The position numbers were made by a program, and so were the translations under genes. The notes below the pieces were generated by a model. The model did not search any database and was not told the DNA's origin. It saw only the letters and a list, made by a program, of their open reading frames with translations. A DNA stretch of 64,000 nucleotides from Streptomyces sp. RPA4-2 (GTDB taxonomy: Bacteria; Actinomycetota; Actinomycetes; Streptomycetales; Streptomycetaceae), in the NCBI RefSeq assembly GCF_012273515.2, contig NZ_CP050975.2:3100001-3164000 (forward strand), in the 5' to 3' direction. Shown here in pieces: positions 20,883-45,300 of this stretch (the first letter of the stretch is position 1; each line of letters begins with the position of its first letter).

Positions 20883-20943
20883 GCCGGGCCCGGACGCCCG
20901 TGTCGCCGGGCCCGGACGGCCGTGTCGCCGGGCCCGGACGCCC
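20883..20943 (+). repeat. 22-bp GC-rich tandem repeat
   Basis: Nearly three copies of a 22-bp unit starting GCCGGGCCCGGACG lie in the 383-base gap after the protease. Each unit contains the palindrome CCGGGCCCGG, so the array may also act as a transcription terminator. The rest of the gap holds nothing I recognise. Confidence 0.8.
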
Positions 20944-21199
20944 TTCACCCGTTCACCCGGGCCCTCCCCCCTTCGGACCCCCGTTCTCCCCTCGCGCTCG
21001 ACGCACACCGCTGACCTGCCGAAACGTCCTCCGATCCCCCCGTACGGCCCTCTCGTACACCACCCGTTCACCACGCTTCCGGCCTTCCCCGGCAAGCGGG
21101 CGCGTGCCGGTACCACTTACCTCGGAAGGGCAGGGGCACGACCGACGCAGCGGCACTTGGGGGTGCCGCGGGCCGCGCCCCCTCGGAGGAGCAGCAACC

Positions 21200-21727
21200 A
21201 TGCGACGCACAGCCCGTCTGCTGACCGGTACCGCGCTCGCCGTCGCCGCCGCGGGTCTCACGGTCGCGCCCGCGTACGGCGAAAGCACCGTGAGTCTGGA
21301 GGTGTCCCCCTCCACCGCGCTCCCGGGTGGCGACATCGCCGTCAGCACGGCGGCGTGCGGCACGAACGGCGCCGCGACGGGTGACGCCAGCGCGGTCGGC
21401 GCCGGGACCTTCCCGCTCGCCGCCGGCCCGCACGAGAACGACGCGGTCGGCCGGTTCCGGGTGCCGCCGAGCGCCCAGCCCGGGACGTACGAGATCGTCG
21501 CGAAATGCTCCCGCGGCACACAGGTCACCGGCGATCTGACGGTCACCATGACCTCGGCGACCTCGGCGCGCGACCAGCTCCAGCCGCGCGGACATGTGAA
21601 CACGGGCGTCGGTGGCGCACTCGGCACCGACCCCACGAAGACCGCGGCGGGAGTGGCGGCACTGGCCGTCGCCGCCGCGGGCGGTACCTGGCTCCTGCAT
21701 CGCCGGGCGAGAGGCGACGGGATCTGA
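21200..21727 (+). CDS. secreted, C-terminally membrane-anchored surface protein
   Basis: A 175-residue protein with a signal peptide (RRTARLLTGTALAVAAAG, cleavage probably after AYG), a beta-rich domain with two cysteines (STAACGTNG, VAKCSRGTQ), a short Pro/Gly-rich linker, and a C-terminal membrane helix followed by the basic tail LLHRRARGDGI. This is the architecture of a sortase substrate, but no LPXTG-type motif is visible before the helix; NTGVGGALGTDPTKTAAG is there instead. ATG at 21200 follows GGAGGA by nine bases. The next gene is a sortase, 186 bases downstream, so the protein is its likely partner or substrate. Confidence 0.78.
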   Translation: MRRTARLLTGTALAVAAAGLTVAPAYGESTVSLEVSPSTALPGGDIAVSTAACGTNGAATGDASAVGAGTFPLAAGPHENDAVGRFRVPPSAQPGTYEIVAKCSRGTQVTGDLTVTMTSATSARDQLQPRGHVNTGVGGALGTDPTKTAAGVAALAVAAAGGTWLLHRRARGDGI

Positions 21728-21913
21728 CGGACACCCTCCGCTGTCCGTCCGCCGGTACCGCCGTTCCCTCCCCCTCCGTGGCCCGACGCCCCTCGCGGCC
21801 CGGAGGGGGACGGGGACCCACCCCGACGAAACCCCGAGGCAGCCCCGACAGGACTTCGAAGACCCCTGCGGAACCCCTGACGAACCCCCGCAGAACCCCG
21901 AGAGGAGGCTCCA

Positions 21914-22558
21914 GTGCACCGGATAACCAAAGCCGGTCGCCCCGGCAGCGTCGGCAACACCGTCATAGCGTCCGTCACCGTGGTCGCCCTCTGCTCGGGC
22001 GTCTGGCTGGTGCGCAGCGGCACCGAGAGCCATCCGCCGCCCCAGCCCTCCGCCGCCCAGTCGGGCACCGGCAGCGCCGCCCGGCAGTCCGTCCCCGCGC
22101 TCCGCCACTCCCCGCCCGAACGGATCCGCATACCCTCGATAGGCGTGGACGCCCCGCTGATGGGACTCGGACTCACCCCCCAGGGCAGTCTGGACGTCCC
22201 GCCCGCCGAGCAGAAGAACCTCGCGGGCTGGTACGAGGCCGGCACCACGCCCGGCGAGCGCGGCACCGCCATCGTCGCCGGTCATGTCGACAACACCGAG
22301 GGGCCGGCCGTCTTCTACGGCCTCGGCGCCCTGCGCAAGGGCAGCGCCATCGAGGTGGCGCGCCGCGACGGCGGCACCGCGCACTTCACCGTCGACGCCG
22401 TCGAGGTGTACGACGCCCGCGACTTCCCCGACGACAAGGTGTACGGGGCCGCGCCCCGCCCCGAACTGCGCGTCATCACCTGTGGCGGCGGCTATTCGAG
22501 GACGACGGGCTACCAGGGCAACGTGGTCGTCTTCGCCCACCTGACCGGCGGCGGCTGA
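21914..22558 (+). CDS. class F sortase
   Basis: A 214-residue membrane-bound transpeptidase. An N-terminal membrane helix (IASVTVVALCSGVWLV) is followed by a Pro/Ser-rich linker and the sortase barrel. Landmarks are RIRIPSIGVDAPLMGLGL, the catalytic histidine in VAGHVDN, and the catalytic cysteine in LRVITCGGGYSRTTGYQGN, followed by the arginine. The ITC-GGGY form is characteristic of class F, the actinobacterial class whose recognition signal is poorly defined. GTG 21914 follows GAGGAGG by six bases. It is adjacent to a secreted protein with a C-terminal anchor. Confidence 0.9.
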   Translation: MHRITKAGRPGSVGNTVIASVTVVALCSGVWLVRSGTESHPPPQPSAAQSGTGSAARQSVPALRHSPPERIRIPSIGVDAPLMGLGLTPQGSLDVPPAEQKNLAGWYEAGTTPGERGTAIVAGHVDNTEGPAVFYGLGALRKGSAIEVARRDGGTAHFTVDAVEVYDARDFPDDKVYGAAPRPELRVITCGGGYSRTTGYQGNVVVFAHLTGGG

Positions 22559-22565
22559 CCCGGGC

Positions 22566-22579
22566 CCGCCCGCGGGCGG
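22566..22579. terminator. possible terminator between convergent genes
   Basis: The 14-bp palindrome CCGCCCGCGGGCGG lies just after the sortase stop and 30 bases before the end of the convergent transporter gene. There is no T-run. Confidence 0.3.
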
Positions 22580-22608
22580 CCGACACGGGTCCGGCCCGAG
22601 CGGCGGCC

Positions 22609-23391
22609 TCAGGCCACCCACTGCTGGTAGGCCAGGTTCGCGACCAGCGCGAACACCACCGTCAGCAGGACCACCCGGACGAACCCGCTGCCCCGCTTCA
22701 GCGCGGTGTGCGCCCCGACGGTGCCGCCGACGAGGTTGAAGACCGCCATCAGCGCGGCCAGTTGCCAGTACACCGTGCCCTTCCACGCGAAGGTCGCGAG
22801 GGCGCCCGCGTTGGTGCAGCAGTTGACGATCTTCGCGGTCGCCGAGGCGGTCACCAGGTCGAGGTGGAGCAGCGCGGTGAGGGCGAGGACGAGGAAGGTG
22901 CCCGTGCCGGGGCCGATGAGCCCGTCGTAGAAGCCGATGCCGAGGCCCGCGAGTCCGATCGCGGCGAGCACGCGGCGCGGCGGGACGGGCTCGGCGGAGG
23001 GCGCGGTACCGAAGGCGGGACGCAGGATGACGAACGTCCCGACGCCGACCAGGACCACCATCACGACGGGCTTCAGGACGTCCGTGCTCATCCCGGCGGC
23101 CACGAAGGCACCGGCCGTGGAGCCGGCGAGCGCCGCGAGACCGATCCGTACGGCCAGCCGCACGTCGACGGGCGCCTTGCGCGCGTACGTCACCGCCGCG
23201 CCGCTCGTCCCGACGATCGCGACCGCCTTGTTGGTACCGAGCGCGTACGCCGCCGAGGTGCCGCCCGGCAGCCCGAGCAGCAGCGCGGGCAGCAGGAGCA
23301 GTCCGCCGCCGCCCACCACGGCGTCGATCCATCCCGCCGCGAGGGAGGCGAGGCACAGCACAACGACCATGGTCAGCGATATGTCGGGCAT
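22609..23391 (-). CDS. TSUP family (TauE/SafE) membrane transporter
   Basis: A 260-residue protein with about eight hydrophobic segments. The N-terminal SLAAGWIDAVVGGGGLLLLPALL and the central GLGIGFYDGLIGPGTG are the paired repeats typical of the TSUP family, which moves sulfite, sulfoacetate or other organic anions. The substrate cannot be read from sequence. It is divergent from nirB, with 317 bases between them. A role in nitrogen or sulfur oxyanion transport is possible but unproven. Confidence 0.88.
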   Translation of the reverse strand: MPDISLTMVVVLCLASLAAGWIDAVVGGGGLLLLPALLLGLPGGTSAAYALGTNKAVAIVGTSGAAVTYARKAPVDVRLAVRIGLAALAGSTAGAFVAAGMSTDVLKPVVMVVLVGVGTFVILRPAFGTAPSAEPVPPRRVLAAIGLAGLGIGFYDGLIGPGTGTFLVLALTALLHLDLVTASATAKIVNCCTNAGALATFAWKGTVYWQLAALMAVFNLVGGTVGAHTALKRGSGFVRVVLLTVVFALVANLAYQQWVA

Positions 23392-23553
23392 GATCGCGAC
23401 CCTATGGAGGGGATGGATGTGCCGTCCATCAAAGGGGGCGTCCTGTGAGGTTCGGCTCCCACCGCCGAGCTGCCGCGGGACCGCCCGGCACCCGCCGGTG
23501 ACGCGTGTGGGGCGGGACCCTCACAGCCGGTCCCCGCCCCCGCTGAGATCAGC

Positions 23554-23591
23554 GTTCCGCCCGGGAAACCACGGCGATGCGACCGGGTAAC
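23554..23591 (+). promoter_or_regulatory. probable GlnR binding site upstream of nirB
   Basis: GTTCC, GAAAC, GATGC and GTAAC follow one another with exactly six bases between each. This is the spacing of the GlnR box (gTnAc-n6-GaAAc twice). The first, second and fourth elements fit well; the third is weak. The site starts 155 bases before nirB, and GlnR control of nirBD is known in S. coelicolor. The rest of the 317-base gap shows nothing else clear. Confidence 0.65.
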
Positions 23592-23708
23592 ACCGGCATC
23601 GCAGGCTGCGGGCATGACCTCGAACGCGCGGCCGGTGGTGACCGGCGCCGGAACCGCGGGGTCCTGGCCGCAGGCCGCTGCACCGCACCCCGACGACGGA
23701 GGCTCCCG

Positions 23709-26300
23709 ATGTCCACGGACACCCCCACGATCGTGCTCGTCGGTCACGGCATGGTCGGCCAGCGCTTCCTGGAGGCGCTGGCCGAGCGCGGGCTGACCGC
23801 GACGCACCGGGTGGTCGTGCTCGGTGAGGAGCCCCGTCCGGCTTACGACCGGGTCCGGCTCACCTCGTACTTCTCGGGCCGCACCCCGGACGAACTCTCG
23901 CTGACCGACGCCGGGTTCGTCGCCGAGCACGGCATCGAACTGCACCTCGGCGACCCGGCCGGGACGATCGACCGGGCGGCGCGGACGGTCACGGCCCGCT
24001 CCGGCCTGACCGTCGCCTACGACACCCTGGTCCTCGCCACCGGCTCCTCCCCCTTCGTGCCGCCGGTGCCCGGCCGGGACGCCGAGGGCTGCTTCGTCTA
24101 CCGGACCATCGAGGACCTGCTCGCCATCGAGGAGTACGCGAAGACGCGTGCGACCACCGGCGCGGTGGTCGGCGGCGGGCTGCTGGGGCTGGAAGCGGCG
24201 GGCGCGCTCCAGAGCCTCGGACTGGCCACGCACATCGTGGAGTTCGCACCGCGGCTGATGCCCGTGCAGGTCGACGAGGGCGGCGGCGCGGCGCTGCTGC
24301 GTACCGTCAGGGACCTCGGCCTGACCGTCCACACCGGCACCGGCACGCGGGAGATCGTCACCGGCGCCGACGGCGCCGTGACCGGCATGGGCCTCTCCGA
24401 CGGCTCCGAACTCGCCACGGACCTCGTGGTGTTCTCGGCGGGCGTGCGTCCGCGCGACCGGCTCGCCCGCGACAGCGGACTCATGGTCGGCGAGCGCGGC
24501 GGCATCACGGTCGACGAGCGGTGCCGCACCTCCGATCCGCGCGTGTTCGCGATCGGCGAGTGCGCCCTCGCGTCCGACGGCCGGGTGTACGGGCTGGTCG
24601 GGCCCGGCTACGAGATGGCCGAGACGGCCGCCGCGACGATCGCCGGCGCGGACGCGGCCGCCGGCTTCACCGGTGCCGACCTCTCCACCAAGCTCAAGCT
24701 GCTCGGCGTGGACGTCGCGTCCTTCGGCGACGCGCACGGCACCACCGCCGACTGCCTCGACGTCGTCTACGCCGACGCGCGCTCGGGCACCTACCGCAAG
24801 CTCGTCATCGGCCGCGACGGCGAGCTGCTCGGCGGCATCCTGGTCGGCGACGCCGACGCGTACGGCACCCTGCGCGCCCTCACCGGATCGGTGCCGCCGA
24901 TCGCTCCCGGGCAGTTGGTGCTCCCGGCGGGCGCGGGTGCCCCGGCCGCTCTCGGTCCCTCCGCGCTCCCCGACTCGGCCGTCGTCTGCTCCTGCCACAA
25001 CGTCACCAAGGGCACGGTCCGCGACGCGGTCACCGAACACTCCCGCACCACCGTGCCGGAGGTGAAGAAGTGCACCAAGGCCGGTACCGGATGCGGGAGT
25101 TGCGTCAAGGTCCTCGGTCAGCTCGTGGACGAGGAGCTGGCGGCGCACGGCGTCGAGGCCGACCACGGCCTGTGCGGCTGCTTCCCGCAGACCCGCGAGG
25201 AGCTGTACGAGATCGTCCTCGCGCTGCGCATCTCCTCGTACCAGGCGTTGCTCGACCGCTACGGACGGCCCGGCGCCCGGGGCGGCGACGGCTGCGAGGT
25301 CTGCAAACCGGCCGTCGCCTCGGTTCTCGCCTCGCTCGCCCCGGTCATCGGCACGAGCGGCCATGTCCTGGACGGCGAGGAGGCGGCCCTCCAGGACACC
25401 AACGACCACTTCCTCGCCAACCTGCAGAGGAACGGCTCCTACTCGATCGTGCCGCGCGTCCCCGGCGGCGAGATCACCCCCGAGAAGCTCATCGTGATCG
25501 GTGAGGTGGCCCGGGACTTCGGCCTCTACACGAAGATCACGGGCGGTCAACGCATCGACCTGTTCGGCGCGCGGGTCGAGCAACTCCCCCTGATCTGGGC
25601 CAGGCTGGTGGACGCGGGCTTCGAGTCCGGGCACGCGTACGGAAAGGCGCTGCGGACCGTGAAGTCCTGCGTCGGCCGGACCTGGTGCCGCTACGGGGTC
25701 CAGGACTCGGTCCGGATGGCGATCGACCTGGAGCTGCGCTACCGGGGACTGCGCTCACCCCACAAACTCAAGTCGGCGGTCTCCGGGTGCGCCCGGGAGT
25801 GTGCCGAGGCCCGGTCCAAGGACTTCGGCGTCATCGCCACGGCCACCGGCTGGAACCTCTGGGTCGGCGGCAACGGCGGCGCCACGCCCCGCCACGCGGA
25901 CCTGCTGGCCCAGGACCTGGACGATGCCGGGCTGGTCCGTCTGATCGACCGGTTCCTGATGTTCTACATCCGTACCGCCGACCGGCTGGAGCGCACCTCG
26001 GCCTGGCTGGAGCGGATGACGGGCGGCCTCGGCCATGTCCGGGACGTCGTCGTGCACGACTCGCTCGGCATCTGCGAGGAGCTGGACTCCCTGATGGCCG
26101 CTCATGTCCGCGCCTATCGCGACGAGTGGGCGGAAACCCTCGGCGACCCGGTGAGACTGGCCCGGTTCGTGTCGTTCGTGAACGCCCCCGGCACCCCCGA
26201 CCCGGTGGTCGGCTTCGTCCCCGAGCGCGACCAGATCAAGCCGGACCTGCCGCTGCTGGCCATCGGCCCACGCCCCCTGGAAGGAAGCGCCCAGCGATGA
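23709..26300 (+). CDS. nirB: nitrite reductase (NADH) large subunit
   Basis: An 863-residue assimilatory nitrite reductase subunit that reduces nitrite to ammonia with NADH. Domain order: FAD/NAD-binding flavoprotein (IVLVGHGMVGQRFLEAL, later GAVVGGGLLGLEAAG), a BFD-like [2Fe-2S] region (VCSCHNVTKG and CTKAGTGCGSCVKVLG), then the ferredoxin-like and siroheme/[4Fe-4S] domains with KSCVGRTWCRYG and SGCARECAEARSKDFG, whose cysteines hold the cluster and siroheme. The length is normal. ATG 23709 follows GGAGG. The 3' end overlaps nirD by four bases. Siroheme may come from the CbiX-like protein encoded at 14.8-15.9 kb. Confidence 0.97.
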   Translation: MSTDTPTIVLVGHGMVGQRFLEALAERGLTATHRVVVLGEEPRPAYDRVRLTSYFSGRTPDELSLTDAGFVAEHGIELHLGDPAGTIDRAARTVTARSGLTVAYDTLVLATGSSPFVPPVPGRDAEGCFVYRTIEDLLAIEEYAKTRATTGAVVGGGLLGLEAAGALQSLGLATHIVEFAPRLMPVQVDEGGGAALLRTVRDLGLTVHTGTGTREIVTGADGAVTGMGLSDGSELATDLVVFSAGVRPRDRLARDSGLMVGERGGITVDERCRTSDPRVFAIGECALASDGRVYGLVGPGYEMAETAAATIAGADAAAGFTGADLSTKLKLLGVDVASFGDAHGTTADCLDVVYADARSGTYRKLVIGRDGELLGGILVGDADAYGTLRALTGSVPPIAPGQLVLPAGAGAPAALGPSALPDSAVVCSCHNVTKGTVRDAVTEHSRTTVPEVKKCTKAGTGCGSCVKVLGQLVDEELAAHGVEADHGLCGCFPQTREELYEIVLALRISSYQALLDRYGRPGARGGDGCEVCKPAVASVLASLAPVIGTSGHVLDGEEAALQDTNDHFLANLQRNGSYSIVPRVPGGEITPEKLIVIGEVARDFGLYTKITGGQRIDLFGARVEQLPLIWARLVDAGFESGHAYGKALRTVKSCVGRTWCRYGVQDSVRMAIDLELRYRGLRSPHKLKSAVSGCARECAEARSKDFGVIATATGWNLWVGGNGGATPRHADLLAQDLDDAGLVRLIDRFLMFYIRTADRLERTSAWLERMTGGLGHVRDVVVHDSLGICEELDSLMAAHVRAYRDEWAETLGDPVRLARFVSFVNAPGTPDPVVGFVPERDQIKPDLPLLAIGPRPLEGSAQR

Positions 26301-26689
26301 CCCGACCACACAGCGCCCCTCCACTGAAGGTTCAACTACGCCTGGAAGAGGCTTGGTTGACCATCTGTGACTTCTCGGCCCTGACGCCCGGCCGGGGGGT
26401 GGCCGCACTGCTGCCGGACGGCCGTCAGGCCGCCGTCTTCCGCGACCGGGCAGGCCGGACGTACGCCATCGACAACCGCGACCCGTTCAGCGGCGCGGCG
26501 GTCCTCTCCCGCGGCCTGACCGGCTCCCACCAGGGCCGGCCCTTCGTCGCCTCGCCGCTCCTCAAGCAGCGGTTCGACCTGGGGTCGGGACGGTGCCTGG
26601 ACGACGAAACGGTGACGGTCACGACGTACGAGGTGAGGACGTACGAGGCAGGGACAACATCGGCGCAGCTTGCACACCCTCTGACTTGA
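26297..26689 (+). CDS. nirD: nitrite reductase (NADH) small subunit
   Basis: A 130-residue protein starting at the ATGA overlap with nirB. It has the Rieske-like fold of NirD: TICDFSALTPGRGVAALL, TYAIDNRDPFSGAAVLSRG and GRPFVASPLLKQRFDL. As in other NirD proteins, the cysteine/histidine ligands of true Rieske proteins are absent. The C-terminal tail of about 20 residues after the conserved domain is Thr/Tyr-rich and not conserved-looking. Its stop codon overlaps the promoter of the following TetR gene. Confidence 0.93.
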   Translation: MTRPHSAPPLKVQLRLEEAWLTICDFSALTPGRGVAALLPDGRQAAVFRDRAGRTYAIDNRDPFSGAAVLSRGLTGSHQGRPFVASPLLKQRFDLGSGRCLDDETVTVTTYEVRTYEAGTTSAQLAHPLT

Positions 26690-26715
26690 CCGTTCGTTCT
26701 GGAAAAGCCTAGGCT
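26686..26715 (+). promoter_or_regulatory. promoter and operator of the TetR gene
   Basis: A -35 TTGACC and a -10 TAGGCT are 18 bases apart. Only seven bases separate the -10 from ATG 26723, so the mRNA is probably leaderless. Between the hexamers lies ACCGTTCGTTCTGGAAAAG, which matches the element at 27349-27366. Confidence 0.65.
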
Positions 26716-26722
26716 CCCCCGC

Positions 26723-27307
26723 ATGGCCAGGACCAAGGAGTTCGATCCGGACGCCGCGTTGCAGTCGGCCCTGGAGCTGTTCTGGCGCCGCGGTTACGAG
26801 GCGACGTCGATGGCGGATCTCGTCGAGCACCTCGGCGTCGGGCGCGCCAGCATCTACGCGACCTTCGGCAACAAGCACGACCTGTATCTGAAGGCGCTGG
26901 ACCGTTATCAGCAGGCGCGCAATCCGCAACTGCTGCGGGAGTTGTCCCAGCCGGGCCCCGCCCTGCCGGCCGTCCGTGCGGTGGTCCGCCGCTTCGCGAC
27001 CGAGGCGGCGACCGGCGAACGGCGCCTGAGCGGCTGCTTCGTCACCAACACGGCCACCGAACTGGCTCCGCACGACACCGACGCGGCCCGCCGGGTAGAG
27101 CACAACTGGGACCACCTCGAAACCCTGCTGCACGCGGCCCTGGTCCGCGCCGAGGCCCAGGGCGAACTGCCCGCCGGCCGCGACCCGCTGGCCCTCGCCC
27201 GCATGCTGCTGGTCCTGATGCAGGGACTGCGGGTGGTGGGCAAGGCGTCCACGGACCCGGCCCGCGTACAGGACGCCGCGGAGCAGGCACTGACCCTGCT
27301 CGACTGA
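26723..27307 (+). CDS. TetR/AcrR family regulator
   Basis: A 194-residue repressor. The N-terminal helix-turn-helix is clear: FDPDAALQSALELFWRRGYEATSMADLVEHLGVGRASIYATFGNKHDLYLKAL. The C-terminal ligand domain resembles the group with CFVTNTATELAPHD and LLVLMQGLRVVGKAS. The promoter is leaderless and contains a sequence that is repeated in front of the next gene, suggesting it represses itself and the SDR gene. The ligand is unknown. Confidence 0.92.
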   Translation: MARTKEFDPDAALQSALELFWRRGYEATSMADLVEHLGVGRASIYATFGNKHDLYLKALDRYQQARNPQLLRELSQPGPALPAVRAVVRRFATEAATGERRLSGCFVTNTATELAPHDTDAARRVEHNWDHLETLLHAALVRAEAQGELPAGRDPLALARMLLVLMQGLRVVGKASTDPARVQDAAEQALTLLD

Positions 27308-27348
27308 ACGCGCCCCGCTCGGCGCGTTTCGGCGTCCCCTCATATTGA

Positions 27349-27366
27349 ACCGATCAGTCTGTAAAG
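27349..27366 (+). promoter_or_regulatory. probable TetR operator in front of the SDR gene
   Basis: ACCGATCAGTCTGTAAAG shares ACCGnTCnnTCTGnAAAG with the TetR promoter (26689-26707). It lies 52 bases upstream of the SDR start, where a promoter is expected. Confidence 0.55.
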
Positions 27367-27418
27367 ACCATCCCTCGCGTACGCGTCCCGTACGACACCG
27401 CAGACGAATGGAGAACTC

Positions 27419-28183
27419 GTGAGCGTCCGCTTCTCCGGCAGGACCGCCCTCGTCACGGGCGCCGGATCCGGCATCGGCCGCACCACCGCTCTGGCGTTCG
27501 CCGCCGAGGGCGCGCACGTCGTCGTCGCCGGGCGCACCGCCGCCCCGCTGGACGAGACGGTCGCGTTGATCGAGGCGCGCGGCGGCAAGGCGCTGGCCGT
27601 GCCCGCCGACGTGTCACGCGCCGCCGACTGGCGGGATCTCGTCAGGACGGCCGTGGACCGCTTCGGCTCACTCGACGTGGCGGTCAACAACGCGGCCGTC
27701 TTCCACGGCGGGACACCGCTCGCCGACCTCGCGGAGGCGGACTGGCACGCGCAGTTCGACATCAACACGACCGGCGTGTTCCTCGCTCTCCAGGCCCAGA
27801 TCCGGCAGATGCGGACCCAGCCGGCCGGCGGTGCGATCGTCAACATCGCCTCCACCATCGGCGTGCACACCCGGCGTCCGGGCGTCGCCGCCTACGCCGC
27901 GTCCAAGGCGGCCGTCACCGCGCTGACCCGCGCCGCGGCCCTCGACCACATCGCCGACGGCGTCCGGATCAACGTCGTCAGCCCAGGCGCCGCCGCCACC
28001 ACGATGTCGCTGCGCCCCGGCGAGTCGGAGGCCGAGCGGGTCGAGCGGGTGCGGCACGAACTGCCGCTGGGCCGGGTGTCGAGGACGGAGGAGGTCGCCG
28101 CGGCCGTCCTGTACCTGGCGTCCGAGGACGCGGCGTCGGTCGTCGGCACGGACCTGGTGGTCGACGGCGGCGGCGCGCTCTGA
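27419..28183 (+). CDS. SDR family oxidoreductase
   Basis: A 254-residue short-chain dehydrogenase with TGAGSGIG, NNAA in VAVNNAAVFHGG, the catalytic serine in NIASTIG, the tyrosine/lysine motif YAASKAA, and the C-terminal VVGTDLVVDGGGAL. It is a complete classical SDR of the kind that acts on small alcohols, ketones or acyl substrates. GTG 27419 follows GGAGA by five bases. It is preceded by the TetR gene with a shared operator-like sequence and is probably its regulated target. Confidence 0.9.
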   Translation: MSVRFSGRTALVTGAGSGIGRTTALAFAAEGAHVVVAGRTAAPLDETVALIEARGGKALAVPADVSRAADWRDLVRTAVDRFGSLDVAVNNAAVFHGGTPLADLAEADWHAQFDINTTGVFLALQAQIRQMRTQPAGGAIVNIASTIGVHTRRPGVAAYAASKAAVTALTRAAALDHIADGVRINVVSPGAAATTMSLRPGESEAERVERVRHELPLGRVSRTEEVAAAVLYLASEDAASVVGTDLVVDGGGAL

Positions 28184-28198
28184 GCGCCGGCGGACCGG

Positions 28199-29137
28199 TC
28201 AGGCCTTCAGGGCGTCGTACGACACTCCGGTGAGCTGCTCGGAAACGTCCCAGAGCCGCTCGCCCGCCGCGTCGTTGCGGGTCCGGCCGGTCCGCCAGGA
28301 CTCCGCCGGCGCGCCACGCCACATCGCGAACGAGGGTCCGGTGAAGGAGTCGGGGCGCACGCCGGGCGCGGTGGCCGCGTACAGCGTGGGCAGGGCGCCC
28401 GCCCGCGGGCTCTGCCCGAAGACCCGGTTGCCGATCTCCATGAACCGCTCGGCCCCCTTGCGGCCGGCCATCCGGGGCCCGGTGGTCTGCAGGTTCGTCG
28501 AGGCGTACCCGGGGTGGGCCGCGGCCGCCACGACGTCGGAGCCGACGGCCGCCAGCCTGCGTGCCAGTTCGTGGGTGAAGAGCAGGTTGGCGGTCTTGGA
28601 GCGGGCGTAGGCGATCCAGCGCCGGTAGGAGGGCCGCGCGCTGTCGAGGTCGTCGATGTCGATGTCGGAGAGCACGTGCATCATGCTCGACACGGTCACG
28701 ACGCGGGCGCGGGGGGTGTTCAGCAACGCGGGGAGCAGCAGTCCGGTGAGGGCGAAGTGCCCCAGGTGGTTGACCCCGAACTGTGTCTCGAACCCGTCGG
28801 TGGTGCGCCCCGGCGGCAGGGCCATCACTCCGGCGTTGTTGACGAGCAGGTCGAGCCGCTCTCCGTACGCATGGTCGTATGTCGCCGCGAACTCCCCGAC
28901 GGAGTCGAGGTCGCCCAGGTCCAGCCGTACGAACTCCACGTCGGCGCCCGGCACTTCGGTCACGATCCGGTCACCGGCCTCGCTCCCCCGCGCCTCGCTG
29001 CGACAGGCCAGCACGACCCGCGCCCCGCGCCGGGCGAGCTCACGCGCCGTCACATAGCCGATCCCGCTGTTGGCGCCGGTGACGACGGCCGTACGACCGC
29101 TCTGGTCGGGGATGTCGTTCACGTTCCACGCGGTCAT
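28199..29137 (-). CDS. SDR family oxidoreductase (retinol dehydrogenase-like)
   Basis: A 312-residue SDR with the longer C-terminal region of the retinol dehydrogenase/WW-domain oxidoreductase group. Motifs: VVTGANSGIGYVTA, the arginine-containing LACRSEARG (suggesting NADP), LLVNNAGVM, GVNHLGHFALT, VSSMMHVL and YARSKTANLLF with the catalytic tyrosine. ATG 29137 follows GAGAGAGG. It converges on the preceding SDR gene with 15 bases between the ends, so the two may share terminator signals but not a transcript. Confidence 0.9.
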   Translation of the reverse strand: MTAWNVNDIPDQSGRTAVVTGANSGIGYVTARELARRGARVVLACRSEARGSEAGDRIVTEVPGADVEFVRLDLGDLDSVGEFAATYDHAYGERLDLLVNNAGVMALPPGRTTDGFETQFGVNHLGHFALTGLLLPALLNTPRARVVTVSSMMHVLSDIDIDDLDSARPSYRRWIAYARSKTANLLFTHELARRLAAVGSDVVAAAAHPGYASTNLQTTGPRMAGRKGAERFMEIGNRVFGQSPRAGALPTLYAATAPGVRPDSFTGPSFAMWRGAPAESWRTGRTRNDAAGERLWDVSEQLTGVSYDALKA

Positions 29138-29297
29138 GCCGGACCTCTCTCCACCGATGTCTGTCCCTCACCGTACGCAATCCGCCACCCGGCCAACGGC
29201 AAGGCGCCGACGGCGGCGACGGCCACGACGCCCAGCGCGCGGGCGAGCAGGACCGGGACGCCGGCCCCGTCCCCGAGAAGCGCGGGCCACGCACGAC

Positions 29298-29327
29298 GGG
29301 GCGGCACCTCGCACAAGGTGCCGCCCC
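29298..29327 (-). terminator. terminator of ppdK
   Basis: Perfect 12-bp arms (GGGGCGGCACCT and its complement) lie around a six-base loop, about 85 bases after the ppdK stop. On the plus strand the hairpin is followed by GCTTCTTT. On the minus strand there is no T-run, which is usual in this genus. Confidence 0.7.
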
Positions 29328-29412
29328 GCTTCTTTCGTACGCCGGAGCCGTCGATCGCCGGTGAGGGTGAATGGTGGTCGACGGGCCCGGAGTCACCGGT
29401 GCTCCCGAAGGG

Positions 29413-32163
<2,751 letters not shown>

Positions 32164-32366
32164 GAGTCTCGACTCCTCGACGTCGCGGTGGCTGCCCTGA
32201 CGGCGAGGAACATACCCAGATCGAAGGCACCTGGGTACGTCCACTTGCACGTCATACGCCTGTAACCACCCGTCCGCCACGCGATCGAAAGTCAAGGCTT
32301 GGCAAGCGCCCGGAGCGGGATGTTTTCACTTCTTGAACGAGTGAGCGCACACTCGCCCACAAAATC

Positions 32367-32479
32367 GCTCATGTGAGCATGCTCCGGCACGCCTGAGTTT
32401 AATCGATGAACGATCAAGGGGTGGCACTGAGTGCCACCCCTTAGGGAAGTGCAGCCGCCCAAGATCCGCTCATCTGAGC
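32367..32479. promoter_or_regulatory. paired GCTCA-N2-TGAGC palindromes upstream of ppdK
   Basis: GCTCATGTGAGC at 32367-32378 and GCTCATCTGAGC at 32468-32479 share flanking bases (CGCTCATnTGAGCAT) and lie 101 bases apart. The first overlaps a second palindrome, GAGCATGCTC. They lie about 200 and 300 bases before the ppdK start, in a 493-base gap, and look like paired operators for an unidentified regulator. Confidence 0.5.
32416..32442. terminator. 13-bp perfect inverted repeat between ROK and ppdK genes
   Basis: AAGGGGTGGCACT and its exact complement are separated by one base. The real loop would be CTGAG. It probably ends the ROK transcript coming from the right, though a T-run is missing and it lies 215 bases past that gene. 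It could instead be part of the operator array around it. Confidence 0.5.
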
Positions 32480-32590
32480 ATTACACCGATCAGAGGTGGC
32501 GAGAATCACGCCGGAACGAGGGCCGGAATTTCATCATGCGGACCACGACGCGGACGCGACACACGGCTGTCACTTGGCACCGGCCACCGG

Positions 32591-32615
32591 GCACCAGGCA
32601 CCAGGCACCAGGCAC
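32591..32615 (+). repeat. GCACCAG heptamer tandem repeat
   Basis: Three and a half copies of GCACCAG lie 42 bases beyond the 3' end of the ROK gene. No function is evident. Confidence 0.7.
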
Positions 32616-32656
32616 GGAAGGCTCGGACAGCGCGCGGGCTCGGACGGCCCACAGGC

Positions 32657-33892
32657 TCAGACGCCCAGCGCCGCCAGCCGCTCCTCGACCCGCTCCGGCG
32701 CGTACAGGTACTCGACGACCAGCGCCCCGGCGCCGACCAGTCCGGCCCGCTCGCCGAGCTTCGACGTCACCACGTCCAGATGAGCGGTGGAGCGGGGCAG
32801 CGCCCGCTGGTACAGGAGCTCACGCACGCCCGTGAGGAACGGGGTTCCGGCCAGGTCTCCGGCGATCATCAGAACACCCGGGTTCAGCAGGGTCACGACG
32901 GTCGCGAGGACGTCCCCGACCTGCCGCCCCGCCTCCCGTGCGAGCGCCATCGCCTCCGGGTGCCCGGCCGTCAGCAGGTCGCGCACGTCCGAGCCGGACG
33001 CGGCCGGCACTCCGGACTCCACGAGCCGCCGCGCCACGGCGCCACCGCTCGCGACGGCCGCCAGGCATCCGTACGAGCCGCACCGGCACAGCGCGTCGGC
33101 GCCGACCCGGATGTGCCCTATGTCGCCGGCGCCGCCGTCGACACCCCGGTAGATGGAGCCGCCGACGACCATGCCCGCGCCGATACCGGTGGAGACCTTG
33201 ACCAGGGCGAACGCCGAGCAGTCCGGGTACCCGGCGCGCTGTTCGCCGTACGCCATCAGGTTGGCGTCGTTGTCGACGAGGACGGGGACACCGGAGCCGC
33301 CGCCGCCCGTCTGCTCCGCGAAGGCGCGCCCCAGGCGCCCCCGGATGTCGTAACCGTCCCAGCCCGGCATGATCGGCGGCTGCACGACCCGTCCGGTCTC
33401 GCTGTCGACCGGGCCCGGCACCGCCAGCCCGATCCCGCACACCGAGCCCACGGGCCGCCCGGCCTTCTCCAGCAGTTCGGCGAACCAGCCGCCCAGTTCG
33501 CCGAGGACCGCGTCCGGGCCGTCCTCGATACGCAGCGTGCCGTGGTGCTCGGCCTGGATCTCGCCGGTCAGCGAGACCACGGCGGCCCGGCCGTGCCGGG
33601 TGTCGAGATCGGCGGCGAGGACGACGGCGTGCGCGTCGTCGAACTCCAGGGTGATGGAGGGGCGGCCGCCCAGCGGTGAGTCCACCGGGCCGCCCGCGCC
33701 CTCACGCAGCCAGCCCGCGCGGAAGAGCCGGTCGAGGCGCTGGCCGACCGTGGCCCGGGACAGACCGGTGGCCTGCTGGAGCGCGCCGCGCGTCGTGGCA
33801 CGGCCGCTGCGCACCAGTTCGAGCAGATCTCCGGCGCTTGCCTGGTTCCCGGCCCTCATGGCCTTCGCCGCCCTTCCCGTCGTGCCGGTCAT
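32657..33892 (-). CDS. ROK family transcriptional regulator
   Basis: A 411-residue protein. The N-terminal winged helix is TTRGALQQATGLSRATVGQRLDRL. The ROK sugar-kinase-like domain follows, with VCGIGLAVPGPVD, VLVDNDANLMA, STGIGAGMVVGG and the zinc motif GHIRVGADALCRCGSYGCLA. Proteins of this build are usually repressors that sense a sugar or phosphosugar. It is divergent from the two glycoside hydrolase-like genes, with about 120 bases holding both promoters, so it probably controls them and itself. The start at 33892 follows GGGGTGGGG; the in-frame ATG 11 codons later is an alternative. Confidence 0.92.
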   Translation of the reverse strand: MTGTTGRAAKAMRAGNQASAGDLLELVRSGRATTRGALQQATGLSRATVGQRLDRLFRAGWLREGAGGPVDSPLGGRPSITLEFDDAHAVVLAADLDTRHGRAAVVSLTGEIQAEHHGTLRIEDGPDAVLGELGGWFAELLEKAGRPVGSVCGIGLAVPGPVDSETGRVVQPPIMPGWDGYDIRGRLGRAFAEQTGGGGSGVPVLVDNDANLMAYGEQRAGYPDCSAFALVKVSTGIGAGMVVGGSIYRGVDGGAGDIGHIRVGADALCRCGSYGCLAAVASGGAVARRLVESGVPAASGSDVRDLLTAGHPEAMALAREAGRQVGDVLATVVTLLNPGVLMIAGDLAGTPFLTGVRELLYQRALPRSTAHLDVVTSKLGERAGLVGAGALVVEYLYAPERVEERLAALGV

Positions 33893-33936
33893 GCCCCACC
33901 CCTTGCGTTCCCCAACTCTGCATTACATATTGGGTT

Positions 33937-33966
33937 TTGCGTGTTAAATAGACGTAACCCTACGGT
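33937..33966 (+). promoter_or_regulatory. promoter of the glycoside hydrolase operon
   Basis: TTGCGT and TACGGT are 18 bases apart. On the other strand TTAACA and TAATGC (spacing 16) overlap this region and would serve the ROK gene. The locally AT-rich core contains TTAAATAG. The overlap of divergent promoters is suited to one repressor site, which I cannot define further. Confidence 0.45.
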
Positions 33967-34011
33967 ACCCAGTGCCGAACCGGTCGGCCGGACGTCTTCG
34001 GGGAGACCTGA

Positions 34012-35853
34012 GTGGACAGCACAACCCAACTCACCATCCGCCGCACGGGAATCACCACCCCCGTGCGCACCTCGGGCTCCCCCGCTCCGCCCGGTTCGGG
34101 CGAGATCACCCACTCCGCCGCCGACGTATACGATCCCGTCCGGTCCGCCGGGTCGCTGCACCTCAGGGCCGCCCACGTGCTCGAAGGCAACTGGACGGGA
34201 ACGTCCACCGTCCCCTCGCGCGGCCTGTATCCGCACCAGTGGTCCTGGGACTCGGCCTTCATCGCGATCGGGCTGCGCCATGTGTCCCCCCTGCGGGCGC
34301 AGACGGAACTGGAGACCCTGCTCGGCGCCCAGTGGGGTGACGGCCGGATTCCGCACATCGTGTTCAACCCCTCCGTCCCACTCGACGCGTACTTCCCGAG
34401 CCCCGACTTCTGGCGCTCCTCGACCGCAGGGCGCGCCGCGGGTGCCCCGCGCACCGTACAGACGTCGGGCATCGTGCAGCCACCGGTGCACGCGCTCGCC
34501 GCCTGGCTGGTGCACCAGGCCGACCCCGGCCTGTCCCGGGCGCGGTCCTTCCTTCCCCGGGTGTATCCCCGCCTCGCGGCCTGGCACCGCTATCTGCTGC
34601 ACCGCCGGGACCTGGGTGGCGGCGGGCTCGCCTCCGTGGTCCACCCCTGGGAGCAGGGCATGGACAACAGCCCCTGCTGGGACGCCCCGCTCGGCCGGAT
34701 CACCCCGGCCCCGCCGCGCACCTTCCGGCGCGCCGACCTCGACCACGGGTCCGCCGAGGACCGCCCGACGGATCTCGACTACGGGCGGTACGTGCGGCTC
34801 GCGACGGACTACCGGGACGGCGGATACGCCGACGGGGCCGGGGCGGAGGCCGGGGCCGGCGCGGGCCGATTCGCCGTCGAGGACCCGGCGTTCAACGCGC
34901 TGCTGATCGCCTCCGAGCACGCGCTCGCGGCCATCGCCCGGGAACTGGGCGCGGCCGGGACCGCACGGCACGCACGCGCGGAGCGCCTGACGGCGGCGCT
35001 GGTGGCGCGGCTGTGGGACCCGGCCGAGGGGATGTTCTTCTGCCGGGACGTGTACGGCGGAGGCGAGGGCGAGAGCGGTGCTCACGGAACGGAGCGGCGC
35101 TCTCCGAGTGGCGATCGCACGTCGGAGCCGTGCTTACAGAGCGGTGCTCTCGAAGCGGAGCGGCGCTCACGGGCCGGCGATCGCGCCGCGGAACAACGCG
35201 CGCAGAGCGGTGCTCTCGAAGCGGAGCACCGGTCACAGAGCGATGCTCGCGAACGAGAGCAGCGCTCGCGGAGCGGTGCTCACGGTACGGAGCGGCGCTC
35301 TCCAAGTGGCGCCCTGATCCCCGAGCGCAGTGTCGCCGGGCTGCTGCCGCTCATCCTTCCCGCGCTGCCCCGCGACATCGCCACCACCCTCGTCCGCACC
35401 GCGGGCGGCCCGCACTTCGGGCTCGGCGGGGTCGCCCGGCTGGTGCCCAGCTACGACCTGACCGGGCACGCCTTCGACCCGCGCCGCTACTGGCGTGGCC
35501 CGGCCTGGTTCAACACCAACTGGCTGCTGGAGCGCGGGCTGCGGCTGCACGGGGAGCACGGGCGCGCGCAGGAGCTGCGCTCGGCGCTGCTGGAGACGGC
35601 GGACACGTCCGGGTTCGCGGAGTACGTGGATCCGTACACCGGCGAGGCCTGCGGAGCACTCGGCTTCAGCTGGACGGCCGCGCTGACGCTGGACCTGCTG
35701 CACGAGCCCCCAGGGGCGGACCAGGTCGTGTCCCGTCCGGGGCGCGACACGTTCGACACGGCACAGGGCGCGGCCCCGCACGGCACACCGCCGGACGGCA
35801 CGGCACCGCGCGGTTCATTCGAGACGGGCGCCAAGGGAGGGGACCGGGGATGA
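34012..35853 (+). CDS. MGH1-like glycoside hydrolase family protein with internal repeat insertion
   Basis: A 613-residue alpha/alpha-barrel glycosidase-like protein. The N-terminal half has GLYPHQWSWDSAFIAIGLRHV, IPHIVFNPS and HPWEQGMDNSPCWDAPL. The C-terminal part has GPAWFNTNWLLERGLR and SGFAEYVDPYTGEACGALGFSWTAAL. These segments are typical of MGH1-like/GH63-related proteins. Between them (about residues 353-436) lies a charged, low-complexity insert made of a 22-residue repeat encoded by a 66-bp tandem repeat, which is foreign to the fold. GTG 34012 is chosen. The stop overlaps the next start by four bases. It probably acts in the cytoplasm on an oligosaccharide or glycoside, under ROK control. 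Confidence 0.8.
   Translation: MDSTTQLTIRRTGITTPVRTSGSPAPPGSGEITHSAADVYDPVRSAGSLHLRAAHVLEGNWTGTSTVPSRGLYPHQWSWDSAFIAIGLRHVSPLRAQTELETLLGAQWGDGRIPHIVFNPSVPLDAYFPSPDFWRSSTAGRAAGAPRTVQTSGIVQPPVHALAAWLVHQADPGLSRARSFLPRVYPRLAAWHRYLLHRRDLGGGGLASVVHPWEQGMDNSPCWDAPLGRITPAPPRTFRRADLDHGSAEDRPTDLDYGRYVRLATDYRDGGYADGAGAEAGAGAGRFAVEDPAFNALLIASEHALAAIARELGAAGTARHARAERLTAALVARLWDPAEGMFFCRDVYGGGEGESGAHGTERRSPSGDRTSEPCLQSGALEAERRSRAGDRAAEQRAQSGALEAEHRSQSDAREREQRSRSGAHGTERRSPSGALIPERSVAGLLPLILPALPRDIATTLVRTAGGPHFGLGGVARLVPSYDLTGHAFDPRRYWRGPAWFNTNWLLERGLRLHGEHGRAQELRSALLETADTSGFAEYVDPYTGEACGALGFSWTAALTLDLLHEPPGADQVVSRPGRDTFDTAQGAAPHGTPPDGTAPRGSFETGAKGGDRG
35073..35320 (+). repeat. 66-bp in-frame tandem repeat with GAGC-N3-GCTC palindromes
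   Basis: GAGCGGTGCTC occurs at 35073, 35139, 35205 and 35271, exactly 66 bases apart. A second palindrome 19 bases later in each unit (GAGCGGCGCTC, degenerate in the third) has the same period. Nine perfect GAGC-N3-GCTC sites are present. The unit is 22 codons, so the reading frame is kept. Units 1 and 4 encode SGAHGTERRSPSG; units 2 and 3 encode SGALEAE. Confidence 0.92.
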
Positions 35854-37787
35854 CGGACCGGCATCATCTGCTCGTGCACGGTGGGACGTTCGCCGCCGTG
35901 GGTGACGGCGGGGACATCAGCGGGGTGCGGGGCGGCAGCTCCCCGGACGGGCTGTTCGTACGGGACGCCCGGCACCTCAGCCGCTGGCAGCTGACCGTCG
36001 ACGGCGCGGTGCCCGAGGCACTGACGCCGGTCTCGGACGGGGACACGGCGCGCTGTGTGCTCGTCCCGCGCGGCGGCCGCAACGAACCGCCCGCGTACAC
36101 GCTCTTCCGTGAACAGGCGGTCACCGACGGCGCGTTCGTGGAGGCGCTGCGCGTCACCAGCAACCGTCCGACGCCCACGACCGTGCGTATCGCGCTCACC
36201 GTCGACGCCGACTTCACGGACCAGTTCGAGCTGCGCTCCGACCACCGCACGTACGTCAAGACCGGCGCCGTACGGGAGCGCCGGATCCTGGACGACGGGG
36301 TGGAGTTCAGCTACCGGCGCCGGGAGTGGCGGTCCTGTACGACGGTCACCTCCGAGCCGCCGCCGGGCGGGGTCGAGGAGACGGGCACGGGCGCCCGGCG
36401 CCTCGTGTGGACCCTGGACCTCCCGCCGCACGAATCGGCGGAGCTGTCGCTGCGCGTCGCGGCGCGTCCGCACGGCGCGCTGAAGGAGCCGCAGGTGCCG
36501 CTCTCCCCCGCCGCGGCGAACGACCGGCTGCTCGCGCTGGAGGACGAGTTCGCGGAGGGCGTGCCCTTCCCGACCGGCTGGCCGGAGCTGGCCGCGGCCT
36601 GCGCGCGCGGGCTGTCGGACCTCGCGGTGCTCCAGGTCCCGGCGACCGGCCCGGACGGCGAGGAACTGCGGGTGCCGGCCGCCGGGGTGCCCTGGTTCCT
36701 CACCCTGCTGGGCCGTGACGCCCTGCTGACCTCGCTGTTCGCGCTTCCCTACCGCCCCCGGCTCGCCGCCGCCACGCTGCCCGCGCTCGCCGCGACCCAG
36801 GCGGTCGAGGTGGGGGCGGCCGCGGTGGCCCAGCCCGGCAAGATCGTGCACGAGGTGCGGCACGGCGAGCTGGCGCACTTCGGGCAGGTGCCGTACGGGC
36901 GGTACTACGGGTCGGTGGACGCCACGCCGCTGTTCCTGGTGCTGCTCGGCGCGTACACCGAGCAGACCGGGGACGTGGCCCTGGCCCGGCGGCTGGAGTC
37001 GCACGCCCGCGCGGCGATCGGCTGGATGCTGGACCACGGCGGACTGACCTCGTGCGGCTATCTCGTCTACCGCGCGGACGGCGGCGGTCTCGCCAACCAG
37101 AACTGGAAGGACTCCCCGGGCGCGATCTGCTCGGCGGACGGCAGCCGTCCCAGTGGGCCGGTGATGGCGGCGGGCGCGCAGGGATACGCGTACGACGCGC
37201 TGCGCCGCACCGCCCATCTGTCCCGGACGGTCTGGGGCGACGAGGTCTACGCGGCCCTTCTGGAACAGGCCGCCGGTGATCTCCGCGACCGCTTCCAGCG
37301 GGACTTCTGGATGAGCGAACAGGCCTTCCCCGCGCTGGCGTTGGACGGCGACGGCCGTCAGGTCGACGCGCTCGCCTCGGACGCGGGCCATCTGCTGTGG
37401 TCCGGTCTCCTGGACAAGGAGTACGGCGAACTGGTCGGCCGGCGGCTGCTGGAGCCGGACTTCTTCTCGGGCTGGGGCGTCCGCACCCTGGCCGCCGGCC
37501 AGCCCGCGTACCACCCGCTGTCGTACCACCGCGGTTCGGTCTGGCCGCACGACAACGCGCTGATCACGCTGGGGCTGGCCCGCTACGGCCTGCACGACGA
37601 GGCCCGCGCGGTCGCCCACGCCCTGGTCGACGCGGCCACGGCGGCCGGCCACCGGCTCCCCGAGGTCCTCGCGGGCTACGGCCGCGCCACGCACACGGAG
37701 CCGGTGCCCTACCCGCACGCGTGCGTACGGGAGTCGAGGTCGGCGGCGGCGCCGCTGGCGCTGCTGACGGCGGTGGGGGGAGCCTGA
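35850..37787 (+). CDS. amylo-alpha-1,6-glucosidase / glycogen debranching-like protein
   Basis: A 645-residue protein starting in the ATGA overlap with the previous gene. Residues 1-200 form the beta-rich N-terminal domain of debranching-type proteins (FVRDARHLSRWQLTVDG, FTDQFELR). The C-terminal alpha/alpha barrel shows WFLTLLGRDALLTSLFAL, GKIVHEVRHGELAHFG, YYGSVDATPLFLVLL, NQNWKDSPGAICS and YHRGSVWPHDNALI, the conserved active-site cleft of this family. It is likely to split alpha-glucosidic links in short saccharides. It shares an operon with the MGH1-like gene, opposite the ROK regulator. Confidence 0.88.
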   Translation: MTDRHHLLVHGGTFAAVGDGGDISGVRGGSSPDGLFVRDARHLSRWQLTVDGAVPEALTPVSDGDTARCVLVPRGGRNEPPAYTLFREQAVTDGAFVEALRVTSNRPTPTTVRIALTVDADFTDQFELRSDHRTYVKTGAVRERRILDDGVEFSYRRREWRSCTTVTSEPPPGGVEETGTGARRLVWTLDLPPHESAELSLRVAARPHGALKEPQVPLSPAAANDRLLALEDEFAEGVPFPTGWPELAAACARGLSDLAVLQVPATGPDGEELRVPAAGVPWFLTLLGRDALLTSLFALPYRPRLAAATLPALAATQAVEVGAAAVAQPGKIVHEVRHGELAHFGQVPYGRYYGSVDATPLFLVLLGAYTEQTGDVALARRLESHARAAIGWMLDHGGLTSCGYLVYRADGGGLANQNWKDSPGAICSADGSRPSGPVMAAGAQGYAYDALRRTAHLSRTVWGDEVYAALLEQAAGDLRDRFQRDFWMSEQAFPALALDGDGRQVDALASDAGHLLWSGLLDKEYGELVGRRLLEPDFFSGWGVRTLAAGQPAYHPLSYHRGSVWPHDNALITLGLARYGLHDEARAVAHALVDAATAAGHRLPEVLAGYGRATHTEPVPYPHACVRESRSAAAPLALLTAVGGA

Positions 37788-43974: not shown

Positions 43975-44200
43975 GTGGCGGACCAGGACGGACGCCGTGC
44001 CCGTGCCGGGCCGGTGCCCACCGGGCCGCGCGGGTCGGATCAGTGGCGGACCGGCACGGACGCCGTAGCGGGGCCGTACCCGGCCGGGGCCCACCCGGCC
44101 GCGGCGGGTCGGATCAGTGGCGGACCGGCACGGACGCCGTAGCGGGGCCGTACCCGGCCGGGGCCCACCCGGCCGCGGCGGGTCGGATCAGTGGCGGACC
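43975..44200 (+). repeat. 74-bp tandem repeat at the 3' end of the VOC fusion gene
   Basis: Two identical 74-bp copies (44032-44105 and 44106-44179) are followed by the first 21 bases of a third, which contains the stop codon of the minus-strand gene. A diverged copy precedes them from 43975. Each copy repeats the sequence of the gene's last codons and stop. Confidence 0.92.
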
Positions 44201-45300
44201 AGGCAGAACGGGTGCCCGGCCGGGTCCGCGTAGATGTGCCAGCCGCGCCCGTCGGAGTCGTCCAGTACGGTCGCACCCCGCGCCAGGACCCGTTCGCGCG
44301 CGAGGTCCAGGTCCGGGACGCCGAAGTCCAGATGGAACTGCTGGGGCCGGCTGGGCTCGGGCCAGCGCGGCGGCTCGTACTCCGCGACCCGTTGGAAGGC
44401 CAGGACCGGACCGGACGGCGTGTGGAGCGTCGCCCAGCCCTCGCCGAGCGCCCAGCGCGGGTCGGGCCGGTCGACCTCACCGCCGAGCAGGTCCGCGTAG
44501 AACCCGGCGAGCCGGTGCGGGTCCGGGCAGTCCAGCACGACGCACTGCAACTCGGCGGTGACGGGGGCCGGCCCCGGTCCGGCCGGCGGAGCGACCAGGG
44601 CCGGCGACTGGCCCGAACGCCGCAGGGCGTCCGCGACGAAGCCGCCGGACTTCAGCTCCTCGACGAGATCGCGGAGGAAGCGGACGGTCTCGCGGCGGCG
44701 GGTCCTGGTCGTGCCGACCGCCTGCCGGATCTGCATGAACCGGCCCTCGATCAGCCGGAGTTCGGGATGTTCCGCGACATACGCGGTCATCGGCTGCCGG
44801 ATCCCGGCCGCGGCCTCCAGTCCCCCGGCGCGGAACGCCTCGACGCCTTCGTCCCCGCGTACGACGCTCGCGTGCCGCAGCGTGCGGGACAGGAACAGGT
44901 CGTAGGCGGACCCGCGTTTCACACCGATCCGTACACCGGGACGGTCGACGTCGGCGGCGCTCACGTGGTCCGAGTCGCGGGGCACGGCGTACACGCCCTC
45001 GATCACCACGTACGGCTCCGTGAAGGCGACTTCGGCCTCGCGTGCGGGCTCGACGGCCAGGAAGCAGAGGTCGGCGCGGCCCTCCGCCATCGCCTCGTAG
45101 GACTTGCGGGCCGCGTCGAAGCAGAGGAGTTCCACGGGGAGGCCCAGCCGCGCGCCGATCTCGCGCGCGAGGTCCACGGTGATGCCGGCCGGGGACTGCG
45201 GAGTGCCCCGGGCCAGTACCGGATTGCCCAGGTTGATGGAGGCCCGCAGCGTGCCGTTCGGTGCGAGATCCCGCGCGATGGCGGCGGCTTCGGTCGTCAT
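44188..45300 (-). CDS. fusion of solute-binding-protein-like domain and VOC domain
   Basis: A 370-residue protein of two parts. Residues 1-230 resemble a family 3 amino-acid-type binding protein (LRASINLGNPVLARG, GITVDLAREIGARLGLPVEL, VAFTEPYVVIEGVYAV, IGVKRGSAYDLFLSR) but have no signal peptide or lipobox. After a Pro-rich linker, residues 250-370 form a VOC/glyoxalase-like domain (LQCVVLDCPDPHRLAGFYADLLGG, FHLDFGVPDLDLAR, IYADPAGHPFCLVRH). The domains are in one continuous frame, so this looks like a real cytoplasmic fusion, perhaps an intracellular ligand sensor or resistance protein. The function is unknown. The stop codon lies in a 74-bp tandem repeat. Confidence 0.82.
   Translation of the reverse strand: MTTEAAAIARDLAPNGTLRASINLGNPVLARGTPQSPAGITVDLAREIGARLGLPVELLCFDAARKSYEAMAEGRADLCFLAVEPAREAEVAFTEPYVVIEGVYAVPRDSDHVSAADVDRPGVRIGVKRGSAYDLFLSRTLRHASVVRGDEGVEAFRAGGLEAAAGIRQPMTAYVAEHPELRLIEGRFMQIRQAVGTTRTRRRETVRFLRDLVEELKSGGFVADALRRSGQSPALVAPPAGPGPAPVTAELQCVVLDCPDPHRLAGFYADLLGGEVDRPDPRWALGEGWATLHTPSGPVLAFQRVAEYEPPRWPEPSRPQQFHLDFGVPDLDLARERVLARGATVLDDSDGRGWHIYADPAGHPFCLVRH

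Follow-up and report, generated by a model that had tools for sequence, protein, structure and literature searches.

Is the short tandem repeat in the middle of a Streptomyces glycoside hydrolase a feature of the enzyme, a neutral expansion, or a DNA element that is merely read as protein? The question is raised by a 64,000-nucleotide stretch of DNA (hereafter the window) which corresponds to positions 3,100,001–3,164,000 of the 9.86-Mb single-contig chromosome of Streptomyces sp. RPA4-2. The host gene encodes an MGH1-like enzyme (Table 1). In the profile search two stretches of the protein match PF22422, the best of them being residues 73–349, and the score of 383 bits against a curated cut-off of 27 makes the enzyme a member of this family; with 345 bits against an NCBIfam cut-off of 550 it scores below the threshold for the glucosylglycerate hydrolases (NF047898). 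A match to PF03200 covers residues 468–518. The ATG of the debranching-type gene overlaps the stop codon of the hydrolase gene as ATGA. The C-terminal tail of the hydrolase (window positions 35700–35850) is a second variable low-complexity region among its relatives, e.g. in P0008–P0015.

Table 1. Window coordinates of the hydrolase gene, its array and its neighbours.
Feature	Position	Strand	Basis
ROK-family regulator gene, divergent from the hydrolase gene	32657..33892	-	ORF, domain match
MGH1-like glycoside hydrolase gene with the array (613 aa)	34012..35853	+	ORF, PF22422 E 2.5e-114
Nine GAGC-N3-GCTC words (35073, 35092, 35139, 35158, 35205, 35238, 35257, 35271, 35290)	35073..35300	.	pattern search
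Tandem array of seven 33-bp (11-codon) units, with the Ser codon of S-x-x taken as the start of each	35074..35304	+	33-bp spacing, register
SGALIPERSV, the native segment proposed as the seed; shares the register of the units	35305..35334	+	identity 0.47 at 33 bp; 15/22 operator-pair positions
GDE_N_bis-domain gene (glycogen-debranching type), downstream of the hydrolase gene	35850..37787	+	ORF, domain match

The original prediction described a tandem repeat with an exact 66-bp register and nine GAGC-N3-GCTC palindromes, lying in frame within the ORF of the enzyme. The repeat, its register, its frame and all nine palindromes are indeed present in the sequence, yet 66 bp is twice the underlying period of 33 bp: the repeat search returned six copies at spacings of 33, 33, 33, 33 and 33 bp, and TRF gives 33 bp × 6.9 alongside 66 bp × 2.4. 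The array is situated between GMFFCRDVYGGG and SGALIPERSVAGLLP of the hydrolase, and the insert is rich in R, E and S. Each unit carries two 11-bp quasi-palindromes resembling GAGCRSYGCTC (hereafter the word), which lie 19 bp apart in two frames, some of them with mismatches. The steps from word to word within the 33-bp period are 19 and 14 bp, and the two codon phases are 2 and 0 in the eight array genes read as DNA. Eight of the nine palindromes match the word, the exception being the one at 35238 with GAT in its centre. Elsewhere the window contains a 74-bp tandem repeat of 3.2 copies (43975–44205), where the ORF 44188–45300 of the reverse strand ends, and a tandem pair of almost identical tRNA-Asn genes (2308–2459).

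The insert is flanked by conserved parts of the enzyme and many homologues have a short loop in its place, both as had been predicted. The solved homologue 2z07 (TTHA0978) is almost loop-free, query residues 350 and 436 being aligned with chain residues 292 and 295. Among the best 120 of 3904 homologues, which represent near relatives only, the length of the loop, its four native residues included, varies between 9 and 189 residues; it is nearly absent in some, a Gly-rich linker in others, and built of the same 11- or 12-residue unit in most. The predicted variation between strains was also found. Counted as occurrences of S-[GSTA]-A, the units number from 2 to 6 in 17 proteins named S. mirabilis, and the enzyme cores of P0022 (6 units) and P0038 (2 units) are 99.8% identical with the word kept in both. 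Therefore the copy number varies, and copies clearly come and go; being unequal between close strains, the repeat is a minisatellite (VNTR). Across Streptomyces the insert is not of one fixed, conserved form, as both its length and its unit number vary. The supposed youth of the expansion is the part of the earlier interpretation that did not stand, since the array type is found in 88 of the 121 rows of a tree built from the enzyme core with the insert omitted, and on several branches. One branch of 56 rows (SH-aLRT 98) consists entirely of array proteins and further arrays appear on distant branches; the tree needs at least 8 array changes, of which the well-supported branches force only 1.

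Of 23 hydrolase loci read as DNA, three (L068, L070 and L144) misfit the pattern and enter no count. Since most of the loci were chosen for a break in the alignment at this loop, the 8 arrays among the remaining 20 do not represent a frequency. The other 12 of the 20 hold unrelated repeats or linkers in the same loop, and its tolerance is therefore general: the loop is a repeat hot spot. This tolerance and the fast change of copy number both favour a neutral expansion, in which slippage or unequal recombination would have amplified an operator-like native segment in a tolerant loop, the word persisting without function through descent and exchange between units. We regard this as a serious rival to the explanation preferred below, though a rather unlikely one. 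The unrelated tandem repeats include RSDGLSE, VRSDG, GEARREPR, VQGGD and VGRDAVGHD, observed in the hydrolase loop of other species (L061, L062, L064, L066, L067 and L069).

Read as xxG-AGC-RSY-GCT-Cxx the word encodes S-[G/S/T/A]-A, and read as GAG-CRS-YGC-TCx it encodes E-[R/Q/H]-[R/C]-S. In 86 of the 120 proteins, preselected for at least two motif-type tetrapeptides, position x of S-x-A is G, S, T or A in 346 of 354 occurrences; in E-x-y-S position x is R, Q or H in 406 of 439 and position y is R or C in only 351 of 439. From S-x-A to E-x-x-S the distance is always 6 residues (19 bp; 257 of 257 cases), with neighbouring units spaced by 11 residues in 115 cases and by 12 in 90. In the eight array genes GCT makes up 66% of the Ala codons of the arrays, against 2% elsewhere in the same genes and 1% in the 12 unrelated inserts, and within the S-x-A context it is used for 28 of 29 Ala residues; TCT accounts for 19% of Ser codons in the arrays and for none in the remainder. 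Over 33 units registered from the native segment (some registers had slipped and were kept, including the first units of L063 and L059) the fixed motif positions carry 1.46 bits versus 0.60 for the spacers. The difference has the same direction at every codon position, and a few spacer positions are conserved too, up to 1.37 bits.

A constraint on the array at the level of DNA is thus well supported by these patterns. The original prediction had noticed the palindromes without assigning a role to them; by their codons and residues they are marked as the conserved element. Selection at the protein level, for a charged and flexible loop useful to the enzyme, would agree with an in-frame insert containing many R, E and S residues, and polar or Gly-rich loops occur here in other lineages too. 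It is nevertheless the least probable of the readings considered, as the synonymous choice tracks the DNA word, the permitted residues are those that the degenerate word can encode, and the loop is almost absent in many homologues. The same data weigh on the neutral expansion introduced above: the word and its 19-bp step persist amid diverging spacers, even when the unit changes from 33 to 36 bp, and the arrays have shifted from the native GCC and GCG codons towards GCT. The words of the array resemble a putative repressor docking site elsewhere in the genome (described below), and therefore it seems that the DNA word, rather than the enzyme, dictates this stretch of protein.

As a single site the word is close to background in its own genome (78 occurrences vs 62 for the reversed pattern). 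Near-matches in the window number 24 vs 14 expected, a value reached by 2 of 100 shuffles. Pairs of words spaced by 19 bp with up to three mismatches are found 32 times in the chromosome vs 4 for the reversed-pattern control, and 6 of these near-pairs lie in the hydrolase, 4 in the region of a TetR-family regulator and 3 in a GFO/IDH/MocA oxidoreductase gene; by pair count the hydrolase array is the largest cluster of such sites on the chromosome. Exact pairs with 3–30 bp between the words are present in 117 of 295 Streptomyces genomes vs 7 for the reversed control. The gap between the ROK regulator gene and the hydrolase gene contains no near-match of the word, and no site of the form GAGCGGYGCTC with up to one mismatch occurs from 18450 to 35073, the hydrolase promoter included, which counts against the operator reading preferred below.

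Palindromic DNA inserted into ORFs at tolerant sites is known from the palindromic elements of Rickettsia, which are dispersed. The hydrolase array resembles them in placing palindromes within an ORF and differs in not being dispersed. A dispersed mobile repeat was rejected as its source, given that no other match to the array in its own genome is better than E 0.002; the best one, with this value, is the TetR promoter. A phage source looks unlikely, the exact 19-bp pair being found in 3 stretches of the viral collection. The GFO/IDH/MocA gene (2,898,322–2,898,409; L010:1501–1588), which has three exact words inside, was considered as a second intragenic operator and rejected. Of 40 unselected orthologues 13 contain the word, with no relation to the regulator (9 of 28 with TetR, 4 of 12 without it), and the same peptide is often encoded without the word, which is taken here as a coding coincidence.

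The regulator in question belongs to the TetR_C_33 type (PF13305, PF00440); its gene occupies 1,376,978–1,377,718 on the minus strand of the chromosome and is divergent from a reductase of the F420H2_quin_red family (PF04075, deazaflavin/F420-type), with the intergenic sites at 1,377,737–1,377,838. Its closest solved relatives are Rv1816 (5d1r) and SCO4313 (2oi8), and an orthologue is present in 213 of the 295 Streptomyces genomes (E 1e-50). Forty upstream regions were sampled from these, 20 from the top-ranked genomes and 20 from lower-ranked ones. The word is present in 40 of 40 and occurs at least twice in 39. Six of seven control palindromes are absent from the 40 regions, and the seventh, GTCCRSYGGAC, was counted 20 times, once each in 20 regions. 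The same word stands at the regulator's own promoter in all sampled orthologues. It is also found upstream in four of four remoter orthologues (55–60% identity, reductase adjacent). Upstream of eight TetR paralogues with 34–44% identity it is found in none, and one paralogue has a single word more than 1 kb away on its other side.

The words at this promoter have more than one spacing. The most frequent distance between exact words is 53 bp (19 cases), then 19 (14) and 52 (14), which counts against the operator reading; 19 bp comes first (60 pairs) only if one mismatch is tolerated, followed by 38 (35) and 53 (21). The distance of 52 or 53 bp resembles the sum of 19 and 33 in the array, a likeness that we do not count as evidence. 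Pairs at 19 bp occur in 24 of the 40 regions when each word may carry up to one mismatch and in 38 of 40 when it may carry two; shuffled regions contain none. Alignment to the start of the reductase succeeded for 11 of 20 regions. These share conserved, promoter-like TTGC and CA-ACT blocks. One word directly adjoins the -35-like block, a weaker one is placed between the two blocks, and another begins about 12 bp past the second block.

The association extends beyond the genus. A scan with one genome per species revealed at least 120 stretches with an exact 19-bp pair, and among the 120 listed 30 have a relative of this TetR no more than 800 bp away, while 10 fall in a GFO/IDH/MocA gene, 4 in the hydrolase and 76 elsewhere. 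Seven of the 30 come from outside Streptomyces (Amycolatopsis, Actinokineospora, Actinophytocola, Actinopolymorpha and Compostimonas), where the regulator is 48–58% identical. Taken together as phylogenetic footprinting, we infer from this association that the word is a putative operator of the TetR. A purely neutral descent from the hydrolase would leave the word at the TetR promoter unexplained.

The distribution over genomes is less strict, which counts against the TetR link. Pairs occur in 100 of the 213 genomes with TetR vs 17 of the 82 without it at E 1e-50 (Fisher P 3e-5, a value that includes the promoter of the TetR itself and takes no account of relatedness), and hence are not confined to genomes with the regulator. 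One of these 17, G224, has a shortened TetR orthologue; 5 exact 19-bp pairs were counted in G184, a one-contig genome in which the TetR search gave no match at E 1e-20. TetR is present in 8 of 8 genomes with the hydrolase array, but also in 122 of 157 genomes with the hydrolase. Also against the link, pairs are common between convergent genes, with 17 of the 76 other stretches vs 98 of 1200 random positions according to a crude gene caller, which placed 12 of the 30 TetR-side pairs in coding sequence because upstream ORFs were read too long.

Pairs between convergent genes and in genomes without TetR would suit a word read in another way, either by a different DNA-binding protein or as an RNA structure of the transcript. 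The RNA of the array does fold better than its shuffles (z -4.44); a self-complementary word, however, lowers the folding energy regardless of its role, and an 11-bp hairpin can be formed by none of the 18 exact pairs of the hydrolase arrays. A different reader also has to face the constancy of the TetR association, which holds in every sampled orthologue, in no paralogue and across genera. We consider such a reader improbable. A transcription terminator was rejected on the same hairpin count.

Where the array came from is suggested by the native segment that follows it. Between x-GALIPERSV and the units the identity is 0.43–0.63 at 33 or 36 bp, with an all-offset mean of about 0.3; in the window itself some offsets other than 33 score higher. 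Compared with the operator pair, the native segment agrees at 13–17 of 22 positions in array genes and at 12–16 of 22 in the seven of the 12 array-less genes that fit the pattern. A value of 15 of 22 is reached by 0.5% of 3319 in-frame windows from five array-less loci. A native segment that is in register and already operator-like is what the neutral expansion would also start from. The best reading of the locus is, in our opinion, an intragenic array of TetR operators for which a duplicated native segment, GALIPERSV, served as the seed; the arguments for and against this reading appear about evenly balanced. The GALIPERSV codons, already similar to an operator pair, would have been duplicated in the insertion-tolerant loop, and the copies would then have moved closer to the operator sequence.

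If the array is such a set of operators, it is most likely bound by the TetR, possibly with about two dimers per unit. What binding would do is less probable than binding itself. The occupied array may act as a mid-operon roadblock, so that transcription proceeds more slowly through the hydrolase towards the debranching gene, or as a decoy which keeps the TetR off its own promoter and lowers the amount of free TetR, or as both. In either case the number of units could tune the response. It is conceivable, and we propose it only tentatively, that the copy number works as a regulatory dial: the units would set the number of TetR dimers held and tune the sugar operon together with the TetR-reductase circuit, the peptide being written by the operator in two frames. 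A transcription factor site amplified inside a gene would then dictate a protein repeat, and the repeat number of a strain would act on regulation. A putative operator is at the same time supplied for the TetR of the 213 genomes among the 295 searched. A caution follows for low-complexity repeats in general, in that the DNA should be checked before a protein-level meaning is given to them.

Each ingredient is already known on its own: operators of TetR proteins, DNA sponges, tandem repeats within reading frames, and binding inside genes. Autoregulated operators of TetR-family proteins have been described in Streptomyces for SCO3201 (TGGCAGATTCTGCCA) and SAV576 (CCRTACRVYGTATGS) (PMC7324645, PMC4051647). 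Like the sites proposed here, they are short palindromes at the regulator's own promoter with a divergent neighbour; they differ in sequence, and in the present case there is additionally a tandem array in coding sequence. In DNA sponges, as treated in PMC7686491, multiple decoy sites could titrate one regulator in the same manner. The sponges tested there are synthetic, whereas the hydrolase array is natural, lies inside an ORF, and consists of putative sites. The in-frame tandem repeats of Borgs (PMC9879509) are likewise fast-changing repeats within ORFs, but selection on the amino-acid repeats was reported there, while in the hydrolase array it is the DNA word that looks constrained. In the M. 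tuberculosis network transcription factors often bind within coding sequence, according to passages of PMC4301838; these contain no operator array shaping a protein repeat, unlike the hydrolase array, and do not name Rv1816. Searches of open-licence literature, as distinct from subscription papers, listed nothing on the word, on this TetR, or on an operator array in coding sequence or as the origin of a protein repeat.

Several word clusters outside the hydrolase deserve mention in their own right. In other Streptomyces genomes arrays or pairs of the word, 19 or 37–38 bp apart, lie between convergent genes (L024:1444–1790, L033:1501–1625, L027:1501–1530, L116, L120 and L131); the pair in L027 is a perfect, terminator-like hairpin. 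L117, L128 and L129 contain word pairs between aminotransferase-like and cydA-like genes (names from peptide reading), and their genomes have many pairs and lack a close TetR orthologue. In L018:1368–1644 words of the GAGC type alternate with words of the GATC type over fourteen sites, almost all of which keep an exact 19-bp phase.
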